Shown: one piece after another, positions 2,174 to 30,887 of the stretch
Numbering within the stretch: the first letter of the stretch is position 1
Layout: every line of letters starts with the position of its first letter
IMG/VR virus record: IMGVR_UViG_3300044678_000583
Location: 1-31,059 of that record
Source of the DNA: a virus
DNA length: 31,059 nt
Reading direction: 5' to 3' (one strand)
Made by a program: the position numbers and the translations under genes
The notes under the pieces: model-generated
Told to the model about the DNA's origin: nothing
The model's database searches: none
What the model saw: the letters and a program-made list of their open reading frames with translations, nothing else

Positions 2174-3181
2174 CTATGCAAAATTTTTCAGCATGGCGGT
2201 GATTTCACGCATCATTTCAAGCACTTCATCCTGTTCTTCCATATCAAAAAGCCCCTCAACTGAAAAACCTTTCCATTCGCCATCCTTGACTTTTGCCCAT
2301 ATTTCTTCGTTGTCTATTAAATAGGTCAGGAACCACGAGCCATCCTTTGCATCTTCATACCCGGTAGGTGGCATCACACCACGTTTGCGGTCAATGAAGT
2401 AACTCTCAATCATGTGGACACCCTCTTTCACGGGGTTGGCATGGTCGGTATTGACTGCTTTATAGGCATCATTGCGGACAAATTTCTTTGCTATCTTCCA
2501 AATGGTGTCGGCATCGAATGTCACATAGTATTCACCACGTATATCATCGTAGCGGTAAATGGGTAAATCGGCCAACATTGCCGGGCCGGTTACAATCCGC
2601 TTTTCTTCGGACTGAACCGAGTATGCCTGTCTCATGTCTATCTGTTGCAATTTGCGACTTGCCCATTCGATACCCTCATCACCACCCCAAGCCAACCACA
2701 TCAGGCGGCCACATCCGTCACCTAATTCCTTGTCGCTGTTCTGTCTGTGCCTTTCAAACCCTGCCATTCGTGCAATTGTGTCACGGGTGATGGCTTCACC
2801 ATTAGCTAACTGATTAGCCCTGATTTTACCCACCGCTGTTCCGCAGTCACCCCATCCGTTTTCTTCGGCCCAACGCAAAGCAACCTTTGCATTTTCTTTG
2901 GCCGCTTCGGGGTAGTCATCATAGCTTTCAAATTTCTGTCTGCTTTCCCATTTGCTGTAACACACGGCAGCGGCTTGGTCTTGCTCCATGCCTTCGCCAA
3001 TCATTACCGGGATGCAACGGCTGATAAATTCATCTTCTGTTTCGTTTGCTGTCGGATCAACAAATTGGTCTTTGAACAGCATGAAGTCTTTTTGTATGGC
3101 TGGGCGGTCAACGAGAGAAACAAACTCAACCCCTGTTTCATCGTCATCATTGACCACAATTTTGTACACTGGTAATTCCAT
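2174..3181 (-). CDS. Capsid maturation serine protease, XkdF-like, with inserted domains
   Basis: The first 25 residues (MELPVYKIVVNDDDETGVEFVSLVDRPAI pattern) and the C-terminal half match the XkdF-type phage serine protease family. The C-terminal half has PIYRYDDIRGEYYVTFDADTIWKIAKKF, then His in NTDH (about residue 247) and Ser in GFSVEG (about 307), which I take as the catalytic His and Ser. Between these halves lie two insertions: residues about 47-80 (EDEFISRCIPVM to AAVCYSKWE), a small domain seen in other phage capsid proteases, and residues about 90-185 with two WxWGGDE-like patterns. I chose ATG 3181 because the CTACTTTTAAA motif sits 3 bases before it; a start at 3208, overlapping the tape-measure gene, would add 9 residues. 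Confidence 0.8.
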   Translation of the reverse strand: MELPVYKIVVNDDDETGVEFVSLVDRPAIQKDFMLFKDQFVDPTANETEDEFISRCIPVMIGEGMEQDQAAAVCYSKWESRQKFESYDDYPEAAKENAKVALRWAEENGWGDCGTAVGKIRANQLANGEAITRDTIARMAGFERHRQNSDKELGDGCGRLMWLAWGGDEGIEWASRKLQQIDMRQAYSVQSEEKRIVTGPAMLADLPIYRYDDIRGEYYVTFDADTIWKIAKKFVRNDAYKAVNTDHANPVKEGVHMIESYFIDRKRGVMPPTGYEDAKDGSWFLTYLIDNEEIWAKVKDGEWKGFSVEGLFDMEEQDEVLEMMREITAMLKNFA

Positions 3182-3184
3182 ATC

Positions 3185-3195
3185 TTTAAAAGTAG
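3185..3195 (-). promoter_or_regulatory. CTACTTTTAAA start-proximal motif before protease gene
   Basis: Minus strand CTACTTTTAAA, then GAT, then ATG at 3181. It occupies the space between the tape-measure stop (3198) and the protease start, and supports the shorter protease start. Confidence 0.5.
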
Positions 3196-3197
3196 GT

Positions 3198-5099
3198 TTA
3201 AACGACACTTGTATTTCTTAACCTGCGGACTCTTGTCTGCGTTTTGGTAATGTCACCCTCCAACACGTACACCCTGCCCATGCCACCAAACTGACCTTCT
3301 TCGGGTAGCGCACCGCCTGTGAGTGGAACGGCTGCTCCCGGACTTTGTGCGGGTGTACCAGTTGCACCGCCACCACCTACACTTTTCCCTTCAAATTGTG
3401 TTTGCTCAATTTTACGCACACGAGCGATACCTGATGCGATTGCAACAGCAGCGGCAATGGCTGCTCTTATTGGTGCATCAGGTGTTTTGATTGCCATTTG
3501 TGAAGCATAAGCAGATTGTGCAGCACCAATGGTTTCAACAATAGCTTGTGCAATAGATGCTTGTTTATTTATTTCAAATGCCTTCCTTTGTTGTTCTTCC
3601 GACTTTCCTGCAAAGGCATCAGCAAGTTGTCCAATTACTGCAAATCCGTTGGCTGCAATTTGCATCCTTTGTTCCGCAGCATTCTTTTGGTCTTCAATTT
3701 CTTTTAAGCGTATCTCTTCTTTTTTCTTTGCTGCTTCCTCTTCAATTTTTATTTCCTCTTCGACTTTCTTTTTATAATCTTCAATATCTTGGAATGCACG
3801 TTCAATCCGTACTTCACGAGCATTTCTTTCAAAAGTTGCTTTTCTTTCTTCGCTTTCTTTTGTGCTTTTTTCAGCAAGTTTAAAACTCTCGGATAAAATA
3901 GAATTTCTTAATTTAAGTTGTGCTTTTAGTTTTTCTGCTTTTGTTGGCTCTTGTGCTTGATTTAGTTCTTTCTGCGCTTTTGTTTGTTTTTCAAGAGTTG
4001 ATCTTACTTCCTCGGCAGTTGCGAGAGATTGGCTATCAAGAACAAGTTGTTTATTCCTTTCGTTATTATAAACTTTTGTGGCATCATTAACATCTTTTTG
4101 TGCATCTTTTAGATTTGAAAAACCACGTTTTGCCAATTCTTGTGCGCCATTATTTATGCCTGTCAATGCACCAACAGCCCCAGCGTAAAACTTATCCCAT
4201 GAAGAAGTTTGCTCATCAAGGTCACCCGTTTGTAATTCCAATAAACGTTTGGTTTTTTCCTGCAAGATTTGGGATGCCGCTTCTGTCCTTGCACGTTGGG
4301 CAATCAACAATATCTGTTTTTGTGTGCGGATGTTCAACTGCTCCAATGAATTTGCGTTGGCAATATTCACATCATCGGTTGCAATACCTGCTTCTTTCAG
4401 TTTGTCAAGCGCACCTTTTCTTTCTGTTTCACTCTTTTTGGTGTCCTGTACAATTTTATTGTAATACTGCAAATCAGCCGCCTGTTGCCTTGTCAATCCC
4501 TCGGCAACTTTCATGGCAGCATTCATCTTGTCCATTTCGGATTTGGCAAATCCAAGCGAAACGGCAATCTCATCCCAGTATGCGGCAACGGTTGCAAGTC
4601 CTGTCAAAAGCAATCCAAGCCCGGTAGCCATGAAAACTTTTGATGCGGTGGTCATTTCTTTGAATGCCTCTAATGCATCTTGACCAAGGGTTATGAATTG
4701 TTTTTTTGCCGCATCCAAACCTTCCAATCCCTCTGCGAATGCCATTGCACCCTGCACTTTTAAAAGGGCTTTTTGCACATCTTCGCTTTCAGCACCAAAC
4801 AAAGCCATCGCACCCTGCGCAGCTTGGAAGCCATTTGCAACCCCTTTGGCTATGGTGTTAATTCGATTAAACTTGTCGGGATGCAATGCCTGAATTTTCT
4901 CATTCAGGTCATCCATTTGGTCTTTCAGTTCAGCTACACGCTGCGCTGCCTTTGTCGCTTCTGGTGAAAACTCCCCAAATTTCTGCGACATCGCTGCCGC
5001 TTCTTGGGTTGCTTCCCTGATTTGTGCTTTCAGCGACTTAACGCTATCCGTGCCTTTGGTTTTGGCTTCTAAATTTATTGCTACTGTTGTTGTTGCCAT
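3198..5099 (-). CDS. Tail tape-measure protein (633 aa)
   Basis: A 633-residue, helix-rich protein. The N-terminus reads as coiled coil with Gln/Ala/Lys periodicity (SLKAQIREATQEAAAM and onward). A hydrophobic segment lies at residues about 150-170 (MATGLGLLLTGLATVAAYW), and a long charged coiled coil at about 370-480 (repeated KKVEEEIKIEEEAAKKKEE-like runs). The C-terminal part has an Ala-rich hydrophobic stretch and a Gly-rich linker near 580. This is the usual build of siphovirus tape measures, whose length sets tail length; 633 residues would suggest a tail of roughly 90-100 nm. Oddly it lies downstream of the tail-tip genes rather than before them. Confidence 0.8.
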   Translation of the reverse strand: MATTTVAINLEAKTKGTDSVKSLKAQIREATQEAAAMSQKFGEFSPEATKAAQRVAELKDQMDDLNEKIQALHPDKFNRINTIAKGVANGFQAAQGAMALFGAESEDVQKALLKVQGAMAFAEGLEGLDAAKKQFITLGQDALEAFKEMTTASKVFMATGLGLLLTGLATVAAYWDEIAVSLGFAKSEMDKMNAAMKVAEGLTRQQAADLQYYNKIVQDTKKSETERKGALDKLKEAGIATDDVNIANANSLEQLNIRTQKQILLIAQRARTEAASQILQEKTKRLLELQTGDLDEQTSSWDKFYAGAVGALTGINNGAQELAKRGFSNLKDAQKDVNDATKVYNNERNKQLVLDSQSLATAEEVRSTLEKQTKAQKELNQAQEPTKAEKLKAQLKLRNSILSESFKLAEKSTKESEERKATFERNAREVRIERAFQDIEDYKKKVEEEIKIEEEAAKKKEEIRLKEIEDQKNAAEQRMQIAANGFAVIGQLADAFAGKSEEQQRKAFEINKQASIAQAIVETIGAAQSAYASQMAIKTPDAPIRAAIAAAVAIASGIARVRKIEQTQFEGKSVGGGGATGTPAQSPGAAVPLTGGALPEEGQFGGMGRVYVLEGDITKTQTRVRRLRNTSVV

Positions 5100-9074: not shown

Positions 9075-9079
9075 CTACC

Positions 9080-9090
9080 TAAAAAAGTAG
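9080..9090 (-). promoter_or_regulatory. CTACTTTTTTA motif with flanking inverted repeat
   Basis: Minus strand ACCTA, CTTTTT, TAGGT, AG, then ATG at 9074. The flanks make the motif an inverted repeat, shared almost exactly with the site at 30877-30887. Confidence 0.5.
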
Positions 9091-9102: not shown

Positions 9103-9705
9103 CTATGTAGTGAGAACCTCACTGGTAACGTATGCGGTTATGGGTTTACCCAAGGCATCTCCCAAGTGCTGTGCGATTGCATCGATATTGGCAGGGGTCA
9201 GTACATCGCCTATAAAATTACCGCCTTTGTAACCAAACCTCTTTATCGTTCCTTTGCTGTGTATTTTTTTGGCAATCGCAATCGCCATAGATTTACGGGC
9301 TTCCAAAACTGACTGACCGCTTTCCTGTTTTGATTTGCGAACGGGAATACCTTTTGCAGTTATCCATTCCTCAATAGATTGCCACAGGAATTTACCGCCA
9401 TTGTTTCCTTGCCTTGTTCTGCCCCTGCCTTGGTCTGCCCATAGGTAGTAACTTGCCATTTCGATTGGTACGGTCACTCCGTTTGCAGTTTCTTGAAAAT
9501 CTAAAACCTTTGTTTCACCAATTAAATTACCTGTGGCTTTCAGTTTCTTTTGCCGCATGTCATCTTTTAACGCATCAACTAAACGCTGAGCCACTCCAAT
9601 AACAAGATCAGCAAGTAATGAATTAGGCATGGGGCTGTCAGGTATGCCAAACTTATCCAGCAACCCTTTGTTGATTGCATCCAGTTGCGCTTTGGTAATG
9701 TTCAC
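9103..9705 (-). CDS. Tail/neck protein of unknown role (200 aa)
   Basis: A 200-residue protein between the frameshifted chaperone genes and the first tail-tip gene. It starts with GTG (NITKAQLDAINKGLL). The centre contains SYYLWADQGRGRTRQGNNGGKFLWQSIEEWI, a pattern I associate with small head-tail joining or tail-completion proteins of the HK97 gp10 type, but the match is weak. The C-terminus has a Gly/Lys-rich turn (TIKRFGYKGGNFIGDVL). A CTACTTTTATA motif lies 3 bases before the GTG and a terminator plus a tRNA-like element lie just upstream, so it probably has its own mRNA start. Confidence 0.45.
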   Translation of the reverse strand: MNITKAQLDAINKGLLDKFGIPDSPMPNSLLADLVIGVAQRLVDALKDDMRQKKLKATGNLIGETKVLDFQETANGVTVPIEMASYYLWADQGRGRTRQGNNGGKFLWQSIEEWITAKGIPVRKSKQESGQSVLEARKSMAIAIAKKIHSKGTIKRFGYKGGNFIGDVLTPANIDAIAQHLGDALGKPITAYVTSEVLTT

Positions 9706-9708
9706 ACT

Positions 9709-9719
9709 TATAAAAGTAG
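9709..9719 (-). promoter_or_regulatory. CTACTTTTATA start-proximal motif
   Basis: Exact consensus CTACTTTTATA on the minus strand, then AGT and the GTG start at 9705. It follows a hairpin terminator at once, which suits a site that restarts transcription. Confidence 0.5.
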
Positions 9720-9742
9720 AAACCCCGACACAATGGCCGGGG
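9713..9742 (-). terminator. Hairpin terminator after the tRNA-like element
   Basis: Minus strand CCCCG (plus 9738-9742), a 10-base loop, CGGGG (plus 9723-9727), then TTTCTACTTTT. It closes the transcript carrying the tail chaperone genes and the tRNA-like element. The T tract is interrupted, so termination may be partial. Confidence 0.6.
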
Positions 9743-9744
9743 CT

Positions 9745-9830
9745 TCATCCGTATGGGATTTGCACCCATGTCCTCACAAAGTGAGATGCTACTCAAAGGC
9801 AGTATTCATTCCTGCTTACACCAACGGTAT
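9745..9830 (-). ncRNA. Class-II tRNA-like element (degenerate; candidate anticodon UGA)
   Basis: An 86-base stretch in the only sizeable gap of the tail module. Minus strand, in order: a weak acceptor (ATACCGT against ACGGAT, with a bulged A); TG; D arm GTGT/ATAC with a 12-base loop containing GG and the A-box-like TGGTGTAAGCAGG; a short anticodon stem TGC/GCA with loop TTTGAGT (U33 present, anticodon TGA, serine); a long variable arm CTCAC-TTT-GTGAG; and a good T arm ATGGG-TGCAAAT-CCCAT. No CCA is encoded. The T arm and variable arm are convincing; the acceptor and anticodon stems are poor, so it may be a decayed tRNA, a tRNA mimic or chance. Confidence 0.35.
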
Positions 9831-16878: not shown

Positions 16879-16908
16879 TTGCAAGTATAGTTTTCTATAT
16901 TACATTTG
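16879..16908 (+). promoter_or_regulatory. Early promoter, TTG-N19-TACATTTG
   Basis: A full Bacteroidota-type promoter: TTG at 16879-16881, 19-base spacer, TACATTTG at 16901-16908. The ATG of the first rightward gene follows after only CAGC, so the mRNA should start at or next to the ATG. Confidence 0.8.
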
Positions 16909-16912
16909 CAGC

Positions 16913-17131
16913 ATGGAAAACACAAAAACACCTTTTGAAATGGGCTGGATAGCCAGTCAGCAGTTTAATTACTACGAAACCGAAGGCGAAAATCCTTTTG
17001 AACTGAACTCCGATGACTTCAAAGAATGGGAAAAGGGATGGTCGTGGTACATAACCCAAACAATCGAATGGGAACGTGATGAACAAAGCGACATTGATTA
17101 TCACGAAAATCAACAATATTGTAACGAATAA
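16913..17131 (+). CDS. First early gene, small acidic protein (72 aa)
   Basis: A 72-residue acidic, aromatic-rich protein (MGWIASQQFNYYETEGENPF; FKEWEKGWSWYITQTIEWERDEQ). No family recognised. It is the first product of the rightward block, behind the best-formed promoter of the window, so it is made earliest. Small acidic first-early proteins of phages often bind host enzymes or mimic DNA; that is only a guess from charge and place. Confidence 0.75.
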   Translation: MENTKTPFEMGWIASQQFNYYETEGENPFELNSDDFKEWEKGWSWYITQTIEWERDEQSDIDYHENQQYCNE

Positions 17132-19590: not shown

Positions 19591-19605
19591 TTAAATATAA
19601 ATAAC

Positions 19606-19613
19606 TATATTTG
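19606..19613 (+). promoter_or_regulatory. -7 box TATATTTG before the DnaA-like gene
   Basis: TATATTTG, then CACC and ATG at 19618. The block ACTATATTTGCACCATG is identical to that before the SSB-like gene. No TTG lies at the usual -33 spacing (TTT instead), so this promoter is probably weaker. Confidence 0.65.
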
Positions 19614-19617
19614 CACC

Positions 19618-20073
19618 ATGAGAATAAAAATCAAAGCACCACAGCGCAACAGCAGGACAACATTTCGTCAAAGCGAAATCGACAGACTCAAAGAAATCAT
19701 CTACCATCAGGGCATACGCATCAATGAACTTGAAAGAATGCTCAAAATAGAAAACATAGACAAGGATGAGCAGGTAATCAAAGCCGCACACCTTGCTATC
19801 CGTTCAGTATTCAGCGAATATCGGCCCGAATGGGTGGTAATCAGCACGCGTAAACGCGATGTGGTAGAACTTCGCCAGATGTTTCAATGGCTGTGCCGCA
19901 ATAAAACCTCTCTTTCGTTGCAAAAAATCGGGCAAATATGCGGTGGCCGTGACCATAGCACCGTGATAAATAGCTGCCGGGTTGTGGACAACCTGATGAG
20001 TTACGACAAACGCTATGCACGAAACCTTGAAAGCGTTAAAAATAAGTTCGAAGAATTTGCAGAACAGATATGA
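19618..20073 (+). CDS. Stand-alone DnaA domain IV (DNA-binding) protein (151 aa)
   Basis: Residues about 52-145 match DnaA domain IV: VISTRKRDVVELRQMFQWLC (basic loop and helix) then LQKIGQICGGRDHSTVINSC, where GGRDHSTV at 109-116 is the DnaA-box recognition signature. There is no AAA+ ATPase domain; the N-terminal 50 residues are basic and then coiled-coil-like. It should bind DnaA boxes without being able to assemble an ATP-driven filament, so it could load or block initiation at the box at 16841 or displace host DnaA. It has its own promoter and overlaps the next gene by 4 bases. Confidence 0.85.
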   Translation: MRIKIKAPQRNSRTTFRQSEIDRLKEIIYHQGIRINELERMLKIENIDKDEQVIKAAHLAIRSVFSEYRPEWVVISTRKRDVVELRQMFQWLCRNKTSLSLQKIGQICGGRDHSTVINSCRVVDNLMSYDKRYARNLESVKNKFEEFAEQI

Positions 20074-20810: not shown

Positions 20811-20836
20811 AATTAAAGTTTAATTTACTATATTTG
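20807..20836 (+). promoter_or_regulatory. Promoter TTG-N19-TATATTTG before SSB-like gene
   Basis: TTG at 20807-20809, 19-base spacer, TATATTTG at 20829-20836, then CACC and ATG 20841. Complete match to the Bacteroidota promoter. Confidence 0.85.
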
Positions 20837-20840
20837 CACC

Positions 20841-21113
20841 ATGTTAATACTCGATATATGTTTAAGTGACCTGCCCAGTGAGGCAATCACCACCGCCAAG
20901 AACGGTAAGAAGTACATTAAGCTCGTATGTGCTGAAAGAAAGACCGAAGGAAAGTTCGGAGAAACCCATTACATTGCCCTGTCGCAAACCAAAGAAGAAC
21001 GGGAAGCGAAGAAGCCCACAACCTATGTGGGGGGTGCTAAAAATGTAAGTTACAAAAATGTAACACCCGAACCGAAAGTAAGTTCAACTGATGATTCAGG
21101 ATTACCTTTTTAG
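20841..21113 (+). CDS. Putative single-stranded-DNA-binding protein (90 aa)
   Basis: A 90-residue protein with a beta-rich, basic body (CLSDLPSEAITTAKNGKKYIKLVCAERK) and the C-terminal acidic tip DDSGLPF, which mimics the DDDIPF tip that bacterial SSB uses to recruit partners. It is shorter than host SSB (about 110-180 residues) and its OB fold is not certain from sequence, but the tip, the length and its place beside the helicase and annealing protein agree. It has the strongest promoter copy in the block, as expected for a protein needed in large amounts. Confidence 0.65.
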   Translation: MLILDICLSDLPSEAITTAKNGKKYIKLVCAERKTEGKFGETHYIALSQTKEEREAKKPTTYVGGAKNVSYKNVTPEPKVSSTDDSGLPF

Positions 21114-21114
21114 T

Positions 21115-21363
21115 ATGAAAGACCAAATCATTAAAACCTGTGATGACATTCGCAATCTGTTGGTTGAAAAGAATGCCAAGTATGGAAACTCCGCACTGGA
21201 ACCAGTGCGGGTTTTCAGCAAGGCATCAACAACCGAACAATTGCTTGTCCGCATTGATGACAAATTGAGCAGGATTAAAACAACAGGGATGGAAGCACCT
21301 GATGAAGACACGCTGAATGATCTTATCGGCTACCTAATTTTACTCAAAATCGCAACGAAATGA
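21115..21363 (+). CDS. DUF1599-like nucleotide-modification-associated protein (82 aa)
   Basis: An 82-residue protein with the pattern IRNLLVEKNAKYGNSALEPVRVF, then LLVRIDDKLSRI and LNDLIGYLILLKIA. This K-N-x-x-Y-G-N-S and D-L-I-G-Y-L signature belongs to the DUF1599 family, described as associated with nucleotide modification and distantly like MazG-type nucleotide hydrolases. I chose ATG 21115, just after the SSB-like stop, over an upstream ATG (21091) inside that gene. It may clean or remodel the nucleotide pool; a link with the PP-loop protein is possible. Confidence 0.7.
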   Translation: MKDQIIKTCDDIRNLLVEKNAKYGNSALEPVRVFSKASTTEQLLVRIDDKLSRIKTTGMEAPDEDTLNDLIGYLILLKIATK

Positions 21364-21729: not shown

Positions 21730-21747
21730 AAACTTATACTATATTTG
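21718..21747 (+). promoter_or_regulatory. Promoter TTG-N19-TATATTTG
   Basis: TTG at 21718-21720, 19-base spacer, TATATTTG at 21740-21747, then CATC and ATG 21752. Same layout as the promoter at 20807. Confidence 0.85.
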
Positions 21748-21751
21748 CATC

Positions 21752-21976
21752 ATGGAAACACAAATAAAAGTCACACACACCGGCAGCTATTCTGCCAAGT
21801 TCGAACACGATGATGTTATTTACAACATTGACTGGGAAGATGACAGCAACACCATTTATTTCATTCAGGAATTTGCACCCGGTCAAGATGGCCGCAAATG
21901 CGTCAGCATTCCTGCTGAAATTCTGCCAACCTTAATCAGGATTTTCGGCACAATCCACACGGACAATTTAAAATAA
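21752..21976 (+). CDS. Hypothetical acidic protein (74 aa)
   Basis: A 74-residue acidic protein, mostly beta strands (QIKVTHTGSYSAKFEHDDVIYNIDWEDDSNTIYFIQEF) with one C-terminal helix. No family recognised. It is the first gene of a transcript that probably carries the annealing protein and the genes after it. Confidence 0.7.
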   Translation: METQIKVTHTGSYSAKFEHDDVIYNIDWEDDSNTIYFIQEFAPGQDGRKCVSIPAEILPTLIRIFGTIHTDNLK

Positions 21977-22873: not shown

Positions 22874-23094
22874 AACAGACAGCAGTAGAGTGGTTATTTG
22901 ACCAATTACCTGACCATTTGCGATTAAGTAGAGATGGGTTTGAAACGCTACAACAAGCCAAAGAAATGGAGAAGCAGCAGAAATTAAAACATCAATTATT
23001 TATAGGCAAGGTGTTTGATATAATTGGCTTTGAAAAAACAATTGAATTGTTGAAAGAATGTAACACCATAATAGGAGGTTATGATGCTGAATAA
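22870..23094 (+). CDS. Small KQTAVEWL-family protein, copy 3 (74 aa)
   Basis: The third member of the family: KQTAVEWLFDQL at the N-terminus and LQQAKEMEKQQK at residues about 33-44, then a different, hydrophobic-helical C-terminus (IGKVFDIIGFEKTIELLKECN). It is the only copy in the rightward early block; the other two are in the late block. An AAGGAGG sequence lies about 8 bases before the ATG, although it is also coding in the preceding gene. Function unknown. Confidence 0.7.
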   Translation: MKQTAVEWLFDQLPDHLRLSRDGFETLQQAKEMEKQQKLKHQLFIGKVFDIIGFEKTIELLKECNTIIGGYDAE

Positions 23095-23266
23095 ACGTGA
23101 AACCCCGAAGTCAATAGAACAATGGCTGCCACCATGCGAGGATGAAATCATTGAAGCACAGCCATACAACTATGCTGATATGCCTGATGACATTCCAAGC
23201 GTGGATGACTGGTTCAAAATAAGGGTATGGCAGGATGAATTGAACGGGGTTGCCTTAACCGGATAA
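23084..23266 (+). CDS. Hypothetical acidic protein (60 aa)
   Basis: A 60-residue acidic protein (KRETPKSIEQWLPPCEDEIIEAQPYN, then DDIPSVDDWFKIRVWQDEL) with no family recognised. Two ATG codons lie side by side (23081, 23084); GGAGG ends 5 bases before the second, a better distance, so I chose it. It is the last gene before the 190-base gap. Confidence 0.6.
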   Translation: MLNKRETPKSIEQWLPPCEDEIIEAQPYNYADMPDDIPSVDDWFKIRVWQDELNGVALTG

Positions 23267-23350
23267 TCACATCAAAATGTGGATTACGCATAAAAAACAA
23301 CCTTCTATTATTGGAGTAATGTTAAAACCACAGTATAATGTGATTGCACT
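23267..23350 (+). other. Short gap without a clear gene
   Basis: A/T-rich spacer after the preceding stop. It holds a weak inverted repeat AATCACAT (just upstream) and ATGTGATT (about 23338-23345), and TATAATG near 23335, but no complete TTG-N19-TAnnTTTG promoter. The short ORF and hairpin at 23351-23440 follow. Confidence 0.4.
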
Positions 23351-23440
23351 ATGTTAGCACTCGGATTAGTTTTGTATATTGCCCCTGCCTTGTTAGCATT
23401 CATCGACTTTTTGGTGGATGTTAGCAATCGCAGGGGCTAA
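23351..23440 (+). CDS. Possible 29-residue hydrophobic peptide
   Basis: ATG to TAA, 29 codons. The peptide begins MLALGLVLYIAPALLAFIDF and ends with a polar DVSNRRG, so it would be a single-pass membrane peptide with a basic C-terminus. Its DNA almost fully coincides with the long hairpin at 23381-23437, so either the ORF or the RNA fold may be the true feature, or both. Confidence 0.4.
   Translation: MLALGLVLYIAPALLAFIDFLVDVSNRRG
23381..23437 (+). ncRNA. Long RNA hairpin, 8 + 15 bp, strand-specific
   Basis: GCCCCTGC (23381-23388) pairs with GCAGGGGC (23430-23437); a small bulge follows; then 23390-23404 pairs over all 15 positions with 23413-23427, leaving the 8-base loop GACTTTTT. Several pairs are G-U in plus-strand RNA and would be A-C mismatches in the other strand, so the fold is specific for rightward RNA. 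No T tract follows, so it is not a simple terminator. The stem could be an RNase III site, an mRNA stabiliser or a small RNA. Confidence 0.6.
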
Positions 23441-23451
23441 CTACTTTTATA
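23441..23451 (+). promoter_or_regulatory. CTACTTTTATA motif before phosphoesterase gene
   Basis: Exact consensus, then GATAG and ATG 23457. It is the only copy on the plus strand, and follows the short ORF stop directly. Confidence 0.5.
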
Positions 23452-23456
23452 GATAG

Positions 23457-24464
23457 ATGACTAAAATTGAAATCGTCAAGAGCATAATGCATCAGCACAT
23501 GCTCGATGGGCAGCTGATGCTCCCAAAACAAACACTCGCCAAACTGATTTACGAACAAAACCCCGGTGTCTGGCCGAACGTGGATGCGGTACGAAAGCAA
23601 ATAAGAGCAGCCACAGGTTCAATGGGTAGTAATTCATACGCAAAAAAACACAGCGAAAATATGCCCGGTAAATCTACCATCGAAGAAGGCCTGAAAAAGT
23701 TTGGTCTTTACACAAAGCTGCCAGTCCGAAAGGATGTGGTGCTGCCATCAGGTAAATACTTGGTAATGTCCGACATTCACTTTCCCGAACATGACCCACT
23801 TGCAATTCAGGCATCACTTGAATACGGTAAAGAAAAAGGCATCACAGGCATTGTGCTGAACGGTGACATCATTGATATGTACATGGTAAGCAGGTTTTTA
23901 CAGGAAACCAAACGACCAAGCATTCGTGAGGAATTGATAATGACACGCAGTTTCTTCCAGTTGCTGCGTGAGGAATTTCCAACCCTGCCCATTTGGTACA
24001 AGTTCGGCAATCACGAAGAACGGATGCGCCATTATTTGCTATCAAATGCCCGTGCCATTGAAGATTTGGATGGCATCACGCTTGAAGAACAACTGCACCT
24101 GAAAAAGTACGATATCAAAGTGGTGTTTCGGGAAAGAATAAAAGCCGGTAAACTTGACATCCTGCACGGACACGAATTTCAAAAGTCAATTATGGCCCCG
24201 GTTAACCCGGCAAGGGGTGCGTTCATGAGGGCAAAATCTTCGCTGCTTATCGGCCACCACCACCAGACATCAAGCCACCACGAAAACAACCTGAAAGGCG
24301 ATGAGATTGTTTGCTTCTCCACTGGGTGTCATTGCACACTTACACCCGAATACAACCCCTACGGCTACATCAAACAAAATCACGGGGGTGCAATCGTGAC
24401 CGTGTTACCTAACCGAAACTTCCACGTAGAAAACTACCGCATAATTGAAGGGAGGGTTTACTAA
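23457..24464 (+). CDS. Calcineurin-like metallophosphoesterase (335 aa)
   Basis: The C-terminal two thirds carry the full two-metal phosphoesterase motif set: SDIHFPEHD (105-113), NGDIID (135-140), FGNHEER (183-189), LHGHEF (236-241) and GHHHQT (266-271). The N-terminal 90 residues are a helical, basic region (KSIMHQHML, QTLAKLIYEQNPGVW, AVRKQIRAATG) like a small winged or DNA-binding module. This fits a phage nuclease or phosphatase acting on DNA, for example of the SbcD/Mre11 kind, but the substrate cannot be read. It is set apart from the other early genes by the hairpin region and a CTACTTTTATA motif. Confidence 0.8.
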   Translation: MTKIEIVKSIMHQHMLDGQLMLPKQTLAKLIYEQNPGVWPNVDAVRKQIRAATGSMGSNSYAKKHSENMPGKSTIEEGLKKFGLYTKLPVRKDVVLPSGKYLVMSDIHFPEHDPLAIQASLEYGKEKGITGIVLNGDIIDMYMVSRFLQETKRPSIREELIMTRSFFQLLREEFPTLPIWYKFGNHEERMRHYLLSNARAIEDLDGITLEEQLHLKKYDIKVVFRERIKAGKLDILHGHEFQKSIMAPVNPARGAFMRAKSSLLIGHHHQTSSHHENNLKGDEIVCFSTGCHCTLTPEYNPYGYIKQNHGGAIVTVLPNRNFHVENYRIIEGRVY

Positions 24465-24788: not shown

Positions 24789-25418
24789 TTATCCGAATGT
24801 GCAAAATAGGGTGAAATCTATGGTCTGCCCTTGATTAAATCTCTTGACAATTTCGAACCAGTGCTTATCAGGTACAACCTGACACCCTGCTGACCACTTA
24901 TTTACCCAGTCACCAAGCCCGGCACGGTGGAAGTTGACGCCAAACAACCCGAACTGCGTCACTTTTTGGTCAAGTTGCCTGTCTTTGTTGCCATCCCGGT
25001 AAATAGTAATGGGTAAAATCTGCTGAAAATATGGCGCACCAAGCCACAAATTAGACCATTTTGCACCCGTTACAAACTTATGAGAGCCGACAACCTGCTG
25101 TTCAGTGGCTACTGCCGTGCCATTTATACCACCAACGGTGAGAGGATTGTAGACATAGAAGTCACCTGCTGTGGTGGAAGCAGGACAAACATACACGATT
25201 TGACCGTATTTGTAGACCACACAGAAGTCATCAAACTTATTTGTCAGCTTGTCATCGGTGCGAAGCCATACAATGCCGTGATATTGGGGTAGCCATTTGC
25301 GTTTTTTTAACTGCTCGGCTATGTAGTTGGCGAGTGCTTCGGTAGTTTTCGGGCCGATAACCCCATCCGCTTTCAGGTTTGCCCCGTTTTGGTTCAGTAG
25401 TTCTTGCAGTGCTTTCAT
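24789..25418 (-). CDS. Endolysin candidate: peptidoglycan-binding plus LD-transpeptidase-like domain
   Basis: I chose ATG 25418, which overlaps the preceding stop (ATGA), giving 209 residues. Residues 1-40 (ALQELLNQNGANLKADGVIGPKTTEALANYI) are a peptidoglycan-binding domain of PG_binding_1 type. The rest ends with GLFGVNFHRAGLGDWVNKWSAGCQVVPD, where His 164 and the S-A-G-C at 176-179 resemble the His and [ST]-x-G-C site of YkuD-type L,D-transpeptidases. There is no muramidase or amidase motif. It lies in the lysis cassette after spanin- and holin-like genes, so a cell-wall-cutting role is likely; whether it hydrolyses or exchanges crosslinks is unknown. Confidence 0.7.
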   Translation of the reverse strand: MKALQELLNQNGANLKADGVIGPKTTEALANYIAEQLKKRKWLPQYHGIVWLRTDDKLTNKFDDFCVVYKYGQIVYVCPASTTAGDFYVYNPLTVGGINGTAVATEQQVVGSHKFVTGAKWSNLWLGAPYFQQILPITIYRDGNKDRQLDQKVTQFGLFGVNFHRAGLGDWVNKWSAGCQVVPDKHWFEIVKRFNQGQTIDFTLFCTFG

Positions 25419-25921
25419 TTGGCTATGAATAATAATGATGATAAGATTGCGATATTTCGCCACGCATTTCGTTTCCTACGCAGTTTTGTATTGTCAACGA
25501 TACATTGTACCAACTGCTCACTTTGAGTGGCTTTAATGGCTTCTAAATGCGTTATCGCACTATCCTGTAATTTTATGACTTCCTCTTGGCTGTAAATTAC
25601 CACGCTGTCATCACTGATAATCTCCCAGCATAGGCGGTTTTCGTCAATCAGTGCGGCAAGTTTTACCGTGTCCTGTTGAAGCTCGGTAATAGTCAGCGTA
25701 TCGTGGACATATTTTGTCCTAATTTCACGTATGCGTTTAACCTTTTCAGGGCGGTTGATCAGCAGCACAGCATATTCGTTTTTGATGCTGTCAATTTCGG
25801 CTTTCAGTGAGTCGATTACTCCTGTGTCTGCCTGTGGTTTTTCTTGTGTCGGGCAATGCCCAAAGACAAGCACAATGCCAAGTACACCACAAAGCACAAA
25901 AAGCCAATCACTTCGTTTCAT
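25415..25921 (-). CDS. Spanin-like protein (Rz type, 168 aa)
   Basis: An N-terminal transmembrane helix (WLFVLCGVLGIVLVFGHC, residues about 6-23) is followed by a charged coiled coil to about residue 140 (VIDSLKAEIDSIKNEYAVLL, QEEVIKLQDSAITHLEAIKATQ) and a short hydrophobic end. This is the build of an inner membrane spanin that joins inner and outer membranes in the last step of lysis of Gram-negative hosts. VFGHC is close to, but not a proper, lipobox. ATG 25921 is preferred over a TTG 9 bases earlier. It overlaps the endolysin start and the holin-like end. Confidence 0.55.
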   Translation of the reverse strand: MKRSDWLFVLCGVLGIVLVFGHCPTQEKPQADTGVIDSLKAEIDSIKNEYAVLLINRPEKVKRIREIRTKYVHDTLTITELQQDTVKLAALIDENRLCWEIISDDSVVIYSQEEVIKLQDSAITHLEAIKATQSEQLVQCIVDNTKLRRKRNAWRNIAILSSLLFIAK

Positions 25922-30870: not shown

Positions 30871-30876
30871 CCTACC

Positions 30877-30887
30877 TATATAAGTAG
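30877..30887 (-). promoter_or_regulatory. CTACTTATATA motif with flanking inverted repeat
   Basis: Minus strand ACCTA, CTTATA, TAGGT, AGG, then ATG at 30870. Same inverted-repeat frame as at 9080-9090, and placed just after a terminator. Confidence 0.5.

Follow-up and report, generated by a model that had tools for sequence, protein, structure and literature searches.

Intrinsic (rho-independent) terminators are located between phage operons, and phages such as T7 and lambda contain intercistronic RNase III processing hairpins, which are long, nearly perfect intergenic duplexes. Phages and bacteria also have small single-span membrane proteins, with fewer than 50 aa, one hydrophobic span, a charged tail and a conserved neighbourhood. 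The hairpin described here lies at the same gene-block boundary position as intrinsic terminators, and GC-rich hairpins with T6-T7 occupy the same interval in sister phages, but it has no immediate U tract, its stem of 25 pairs is longer than the usual one of about 7-9, and it is situated inside a conserved coding frame. Its length is suitable for RNase III; unlike the T7 and lambda hairpins it overlaps coding sequence, and it is a candidate processing site. The miniprotein encoded by the same bases resembles the small membrane proteins in all the respects listed above, but had no match in Pfam or PHROGs, nor by tblastn against public phage genomes. Operon-end hairpins are known, and so are small membrane proteins of phages. 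What is new is a miniprotein family outside the libraries searched that has a long U-less hairpin within its codons in one clade and ordinary terminator-like hairpins in sister clades. A narrow search of titles and abstracts, covering RNase III sites of phages as well as small holins, returned nothing directly comparable.

The window, which is the whole stretch analysed (positions 1-31,059, one strand, of virus record IMGVR_UViG_3300044678_000583), belongs to an uncultivated tailed phage. The terminase, portal, head maturation protease and tape measure genes are all on the minus strand, and the plus strand encodes DnaD-like and DnaB-like replication proteins and an Erf/Rad52-type annealing protein. 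A very strong structure on both strands, containing a GCACTGGAACCAGTGC palindrome, was observed at 21150-21260, inside the ORF region 21091-21363 near the replication genes. The locus under study is near the end of the rightward block. On its left is a gene of 61 codons (23081..23266, plus strand), and on its right, as the next gene after the peptide and hairpin, a metallophosphoesterase gene of 335 aa (23457..24464, plus strand). The gap between these genes measures 190 bases, as the original prediction stated. An 84-nt segment (23267..23350, plus strand) separates the 61-codon gene from the peptide in the subgroup of the window. This segment is missing from most relatives, and in most relatives the stop codon of the 61-codon gene directly abuts the peptide ATG (TAG-ATG).

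The predicted ORF of 29 codons is present on the plus strand at 23351..23440, with its ATG at 23351 and its TAA at 23438-23440. It encodes the 29-aa peptide MLALGLVLYIAPALLAFIDFLVDVSNRRG, for which frame conservation, synonymous excess and hydropathy indicate a miniprotein with a single predicted membrane span. The peptide consists of a hydrophobic span plus a small charged tail. A 19-aa segment has a Kyte-Doolittle mean of 2.34 in the window, and a 19-residue hydrophobic stretch was found in all members examined (mean 2.16-2.44 across seven members, by hydropathy only). In relatives the length of the miniprotein ranges from 25 to 33 aa. Scans of IMG/VR with DNA and protein recovered 37 related contigs with the element, every one of which retains both the ORF and the hairpin; the absence from close relatives named beforehand as evidence against the element was not seen. 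The C-terminal consensus of the 37 contigs reads LYIAP(A/V)(L/V)LA(F/L)ID(F/L)LV(D/Y)VSNRR(G/R), and the N-terminal starts vary among relatives (MLALGL, MVFGL, MTLGL). Twenty-two further, more distant contigs were found through a scan with a 288-aa metallophosphoesterase and degenerate DNA patterns for the peptide. They encode divergent peptide homologues immediately upstream of the metallophosphoesterase gene, for example MKDIGIMLYILPILLAFVDFITHKE and ...LYLLPCLLALIDFLTHFSNRG at the same place. Chance pattern matches (L076, L077, L166, L167, L176 and L180) were excluded from all claims, and L166 was also left out of the count of synonymous changes.

About 49 of 85 changes in a 14-codon core were synonymous against 24% expected, an approximate count on a minimum spanning tree in which branches were not modelled. 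In lineages without a hairpin over the ORF, 23.5 of 43 changes were synonymous by the same approximate procedure. The fact that the synonymous excess persists in these lineages indicates that the frame is under protein-level selection even without an overlapping hairpin. Judged by this comparison, the ORF is a genuine gene: its reading frame and amino acid sequence are conserved, and synonymous changes are in excess. The comparison also indicates that the peptide predates the hairpin or is more widely distributed, since the 22 distant contigs encode homologues and the synonymous excess is retained where no hairpin overlaps.

A metallophosphoesterase gene directly follows the peptide in every relative in which the peptide was seen. 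In two contigs the 335-aa enzyme is replaced by the different 288-aa metallophosphoesterase behind the same element (L008:1196-2062 and L069:1716-2582). The exact exchange of phosphoesterase types behind the peptide-hairpin-box segment suggests recombination at a conserved joint. Homologues of the 288-aa enzyme with 52-64% identity (L090-L157) showed no upstream peptide by eye among the matches listed. A DNA-level search of public phages gave no related sequence, and a scan of genome contigs with the phosphoesterase as query found nothing.

The RNA hairpin itself occupies 23381..23437 on the plus strand and ends at the stop codon of the ORF, with 23381-23406 paired to 23411-23437 around a loop at 23407-23410. 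The original prediction of a hairpin was right, but its 8 + 15 pairs and 8-base loop were not; the stem comprises 8 + 17 pairs, 25 in all, and the loop 4 nt. Folded in a 151-nt context it reached -47.5 kcal/mol (z -4.64), and none of 200 shuffles folded as well. It ranks among the top two or three RNA structures on the plus strand of the window. The strand specificity claimed for it was reproduced (-37.9 kcal/mol for the ORF RNA versus -23.8 for the opposite strand), and the per-pair table contains several G-U pairs among the 25, also as predicted. Synonymous recoding is the proper control here because the same bases encode the peptide. Only 2 of 2000 random synonymous recodings of the whole ORF folded as well, as did 16 of 2000 permutations of the ORF's own synonymous codons, and 0 of 1000 synonymous recodings of the 22 stem-holding codons reached the native energy. 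The hairpin is not a by-product of encoding the peptide.

With a GC-rich foot of 8 bp (GCCCCTGC/GCAGGGGC), the hairpin has the GC-rich stem-loop of an intrinsic terminator. The stem ends in GGGGC-TAACTACTTTTATAG, and there is no T tract immediately after it, as noted originally. The sequence that follows is UAACUACUUUUAUAG, with no U tract directly 3' of the stem, and a terminator scan of the window omits the hairpin. Since an immediate U tract is absent, the hairpin falls outside the definition of an intrinsic terminator. An RNase III-type duplex has about 20 or more near-perfect pairs, and the 25 pairs here are interrupted by one small internal loop. The hairpin region gave no match above the gathering score in Rfam 15.

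Eleven distinct versions of the 89-nt segment were present among relatives, and each forms a long hairpin of -29.5 to -39.0 kcal/mol. When each allele was compared with its own synonymous recodings, 0 of 1000 folded as well for ten alleles and 8 of 1000 for one. Paired cells amounted to 94.5%, compared with 32-53% in slid controls. At column pair 30/45 both partners have changed, C-G having become G-C (codons TTC/GTG replaced by TTG/GTC), and three pair types, U-G, C-G and U-A, were seen at pair 33/42 (codons ATC/TTG, ATT/TTG and ATT/TTA). In a second, diverged class of alleles, with GTGGTTCTTGC in the 5' arm, the long hairpin is re-paired in a partly shifted register. The observed covariation score was reached by 5 of 500 column shuffles, although this covariation rests on few independent events because the alleles are related. 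The numbers of doubly changed pairs and of extra pair types were unexceptional against column shuffles (178/500 and 161/500). The comparison of related phages proposed with the original prediction thus came out on both sides, the synonymous excess supporting the peptide and the compensatory change the stem, and both of the constraints predicted for the same bases are retained in relatives. By this comparison, the last 20 codons in this phage group are additionally selected for a long RNA hairpin.

The two arms are not equally variable. Diversity is 0.026 in the 3' arm versus 0.085 in the 5' arm, and third-position diversity is 0.151 at the beginning of the peptide but drops to 0.043 towards its end, with 0.154 and 0.221 in the neighbouring genes. 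The lower diversity of the 3' arm is a hint that this arm is additionally constrained at the DNA or protein level, and the asymmetry leaves room for a further element in this arm.

Between the upstream gene and the phosphoesterase there is usually a terminator-like or a long hairpin, whose placement relative to the peptide varies. In one set of sister phages (L078-L082, L089 and L112), a short hairpin GGGGATGATTTCATCCCC with a T7 tail spans the peptide stop codon. The version in L081 and L082 is GGGGGTGATTTCACCCCC, a compensated paired change relative to GGGGATGATTTCATCCCC. In another set (L083-L087), GCCTATCCCAACCGGGGTAGGC or a close variant followed by T6 is located before the peptide, and none overlaps the peptide end. 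L088 had no clear U-tailed hairpin at either position. Repeated ACCCTATCGGGT inverted-repeat motifs, possibly operators, were also seen upstream of the peptide start in L083-L087.

A start-proximal box, CTACTTTTATAGATAG (23441..23456, plus strand), abuts the phosphoesterase ATG and is a candidate late promoter box. The motif CTACTTTTATA-N5 abuts the starts of five genes, namely the phosphoesterase and four leftward structural genes (pattern matches at 9704-9719, 9075-9090, 3180-3195 and 30872-30887, minus strand), and the CTACTTTTATA box had 6 pattern matches in the window against 0.16 expected. It recurs in nine related genomes, is weaker in G010 and is missing in G011 and G012. At the 3180 box, the start of the protease gene is suggested to be the ATG there, not the GTG at 3208. 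A hairpin is located just upstream of three of the five boxes, and at the 9719 and 30887 sites it is terminator-like; no strong hairpin was found before the other two. At the 9719 site the upstream hairpin differs in sequence between relatives, yet a hairpin persists. Just upstream of that box, at 9720-9795 (minus strand), a tRNA T-arm-like GGACATGGGTGCAAATCCCATACGGA is followed by the terminator-like hairpin; ARAGORN called no tRNA in this region.

Early rightward genes carry TATATTTGCACC-ATG in place of the CTACTTTTATA box. The motif TACTATATTTGCACC directly precedes the ATG of early rightward genes in four pattern matches (19603-19620, 20826-20843, 21737-21754 and 16898-16915, plus strand) against 0.02 expected. 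The Bacteroidetes -7 element is TANNTTTG (PMC6847099). The TATATTTGCACC-ATG arrangement fits this element and so suggests a host among the Bacteroidota, although a search for a host record found none. The late CTACTTTTATA box may resemble a variant of the same element.

The comparison among relatives demonstrates that the frame has a coding function, that the stem is under selection and how the hairpin is placed with respect to the terminator-like hairpins of sister phages. We somewhat favour a dual-coded locus, in which the last codons of a phage-specific single-span membrane miniprotein gene form a transcript-boundary hairpin. The miniprotein gene lies near the end of the rightward early block, directly before the metallophosphoesterase, and the hairpin would be the boundary element that separates the early block from the start box of the phosphoesterase itself. 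There it may define, protect or process the 3' end of the mRNA from upstream, with RNase III as one possible agent of processing, and the phosphoesterase would be expressed separately from its own late-type start with the CTACTTTTATA box as promoter. The boundary reading is based on the U-tailed terminator-like hairpins of sister phages in the same interval. The hairpin probably marks where one gene block ends, immediately ahead of the start signal of the next gene. Among the functions guessed at originally, an RNase III-type or 3'-boundary hairpin is plausible; a small RNA, translational control and a holin or toxin lack positive support. Ribosomes translating the peptide might melt the hairpin and in this way gate or couple phosphoesterase translation. 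The start of the phosphoesterase is just 16 nt past the peptide stop and has no Shine-Dalgarno match upstream; the TAG-ATG abutment of upstream gene and peptide in most relatives would also suit such coupling. However, the stem does not include the start region, for which folding predicts unchanged accessibility (unpaired 0.65 with and 0.64 without the hairpin), which leaves the gating model unsupported and weakens the idea of a translationally controlled peptide. The same gene order is kept in lineages without an overlapping hairpin and the phosphoesterase box is common to unlinked genes having no such peptide, and we consider this explanation unlikely.

It is also conceivable, but rather unlikely, that the 3' arm and spacer act mainly as a promoter or operator for the phosphoesterase, with the RNA hairpin secondary. 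The 3' arm and spacer vary least and the CTACTTTTATA box recurs before four structural genes, but by eye the five boxes share no common upstream promoter element at a fixed spacing, and the 5' arm pairing and the C-G to G-C double change would be left unexplained. We think it distinctly doubtful that the U-less hairpin is a separate kind of operon-end signal, with translation of the miniprotein deciding hairpin formation and hence whether upstream transcripts end or read through into the phosphoesterase. A holin- or toxin-like membrane-active peptide would accord with the hydrophobic span and small charged tail and with an endolysin-like gene nearby (24789-25463, minus strand). That gene, however, is on the opposite strand, the peptide follows rightward replication and recombination genes, and 28 aa is very small for a holin; with a single predicted span and no Pfam or PHROGs family, the proposal went unsupported and is quite improbable. 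Least credible, and very improbable, is a discrete small RNA. The structure is stable and strand-specific and RNase III processing could release such an RNA, but it has no Rfam match and is embedded in a conserved coding frame, and neither a start signal nor a terminator tail of its own was found.

Should the early motif be the Bacteroidetes -7 element, transcription would begin at the start codon or right beside it, giving leaderless transcripts. The dual-coded locus is a clear instance of two codes on the same bases in tailed phages, one of them a conserved miniprotein gene absent from the libraries searched. Its natural alleles, with a long overlapping hairpin, a short U-tailed overlapping hairpin or no overlap, allow the constraint on the protein to be told apart from that on the RNA. 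The locus also suggests a way in which these phages may separate gene blocks, by a hairpin followed by a start-abutting box.
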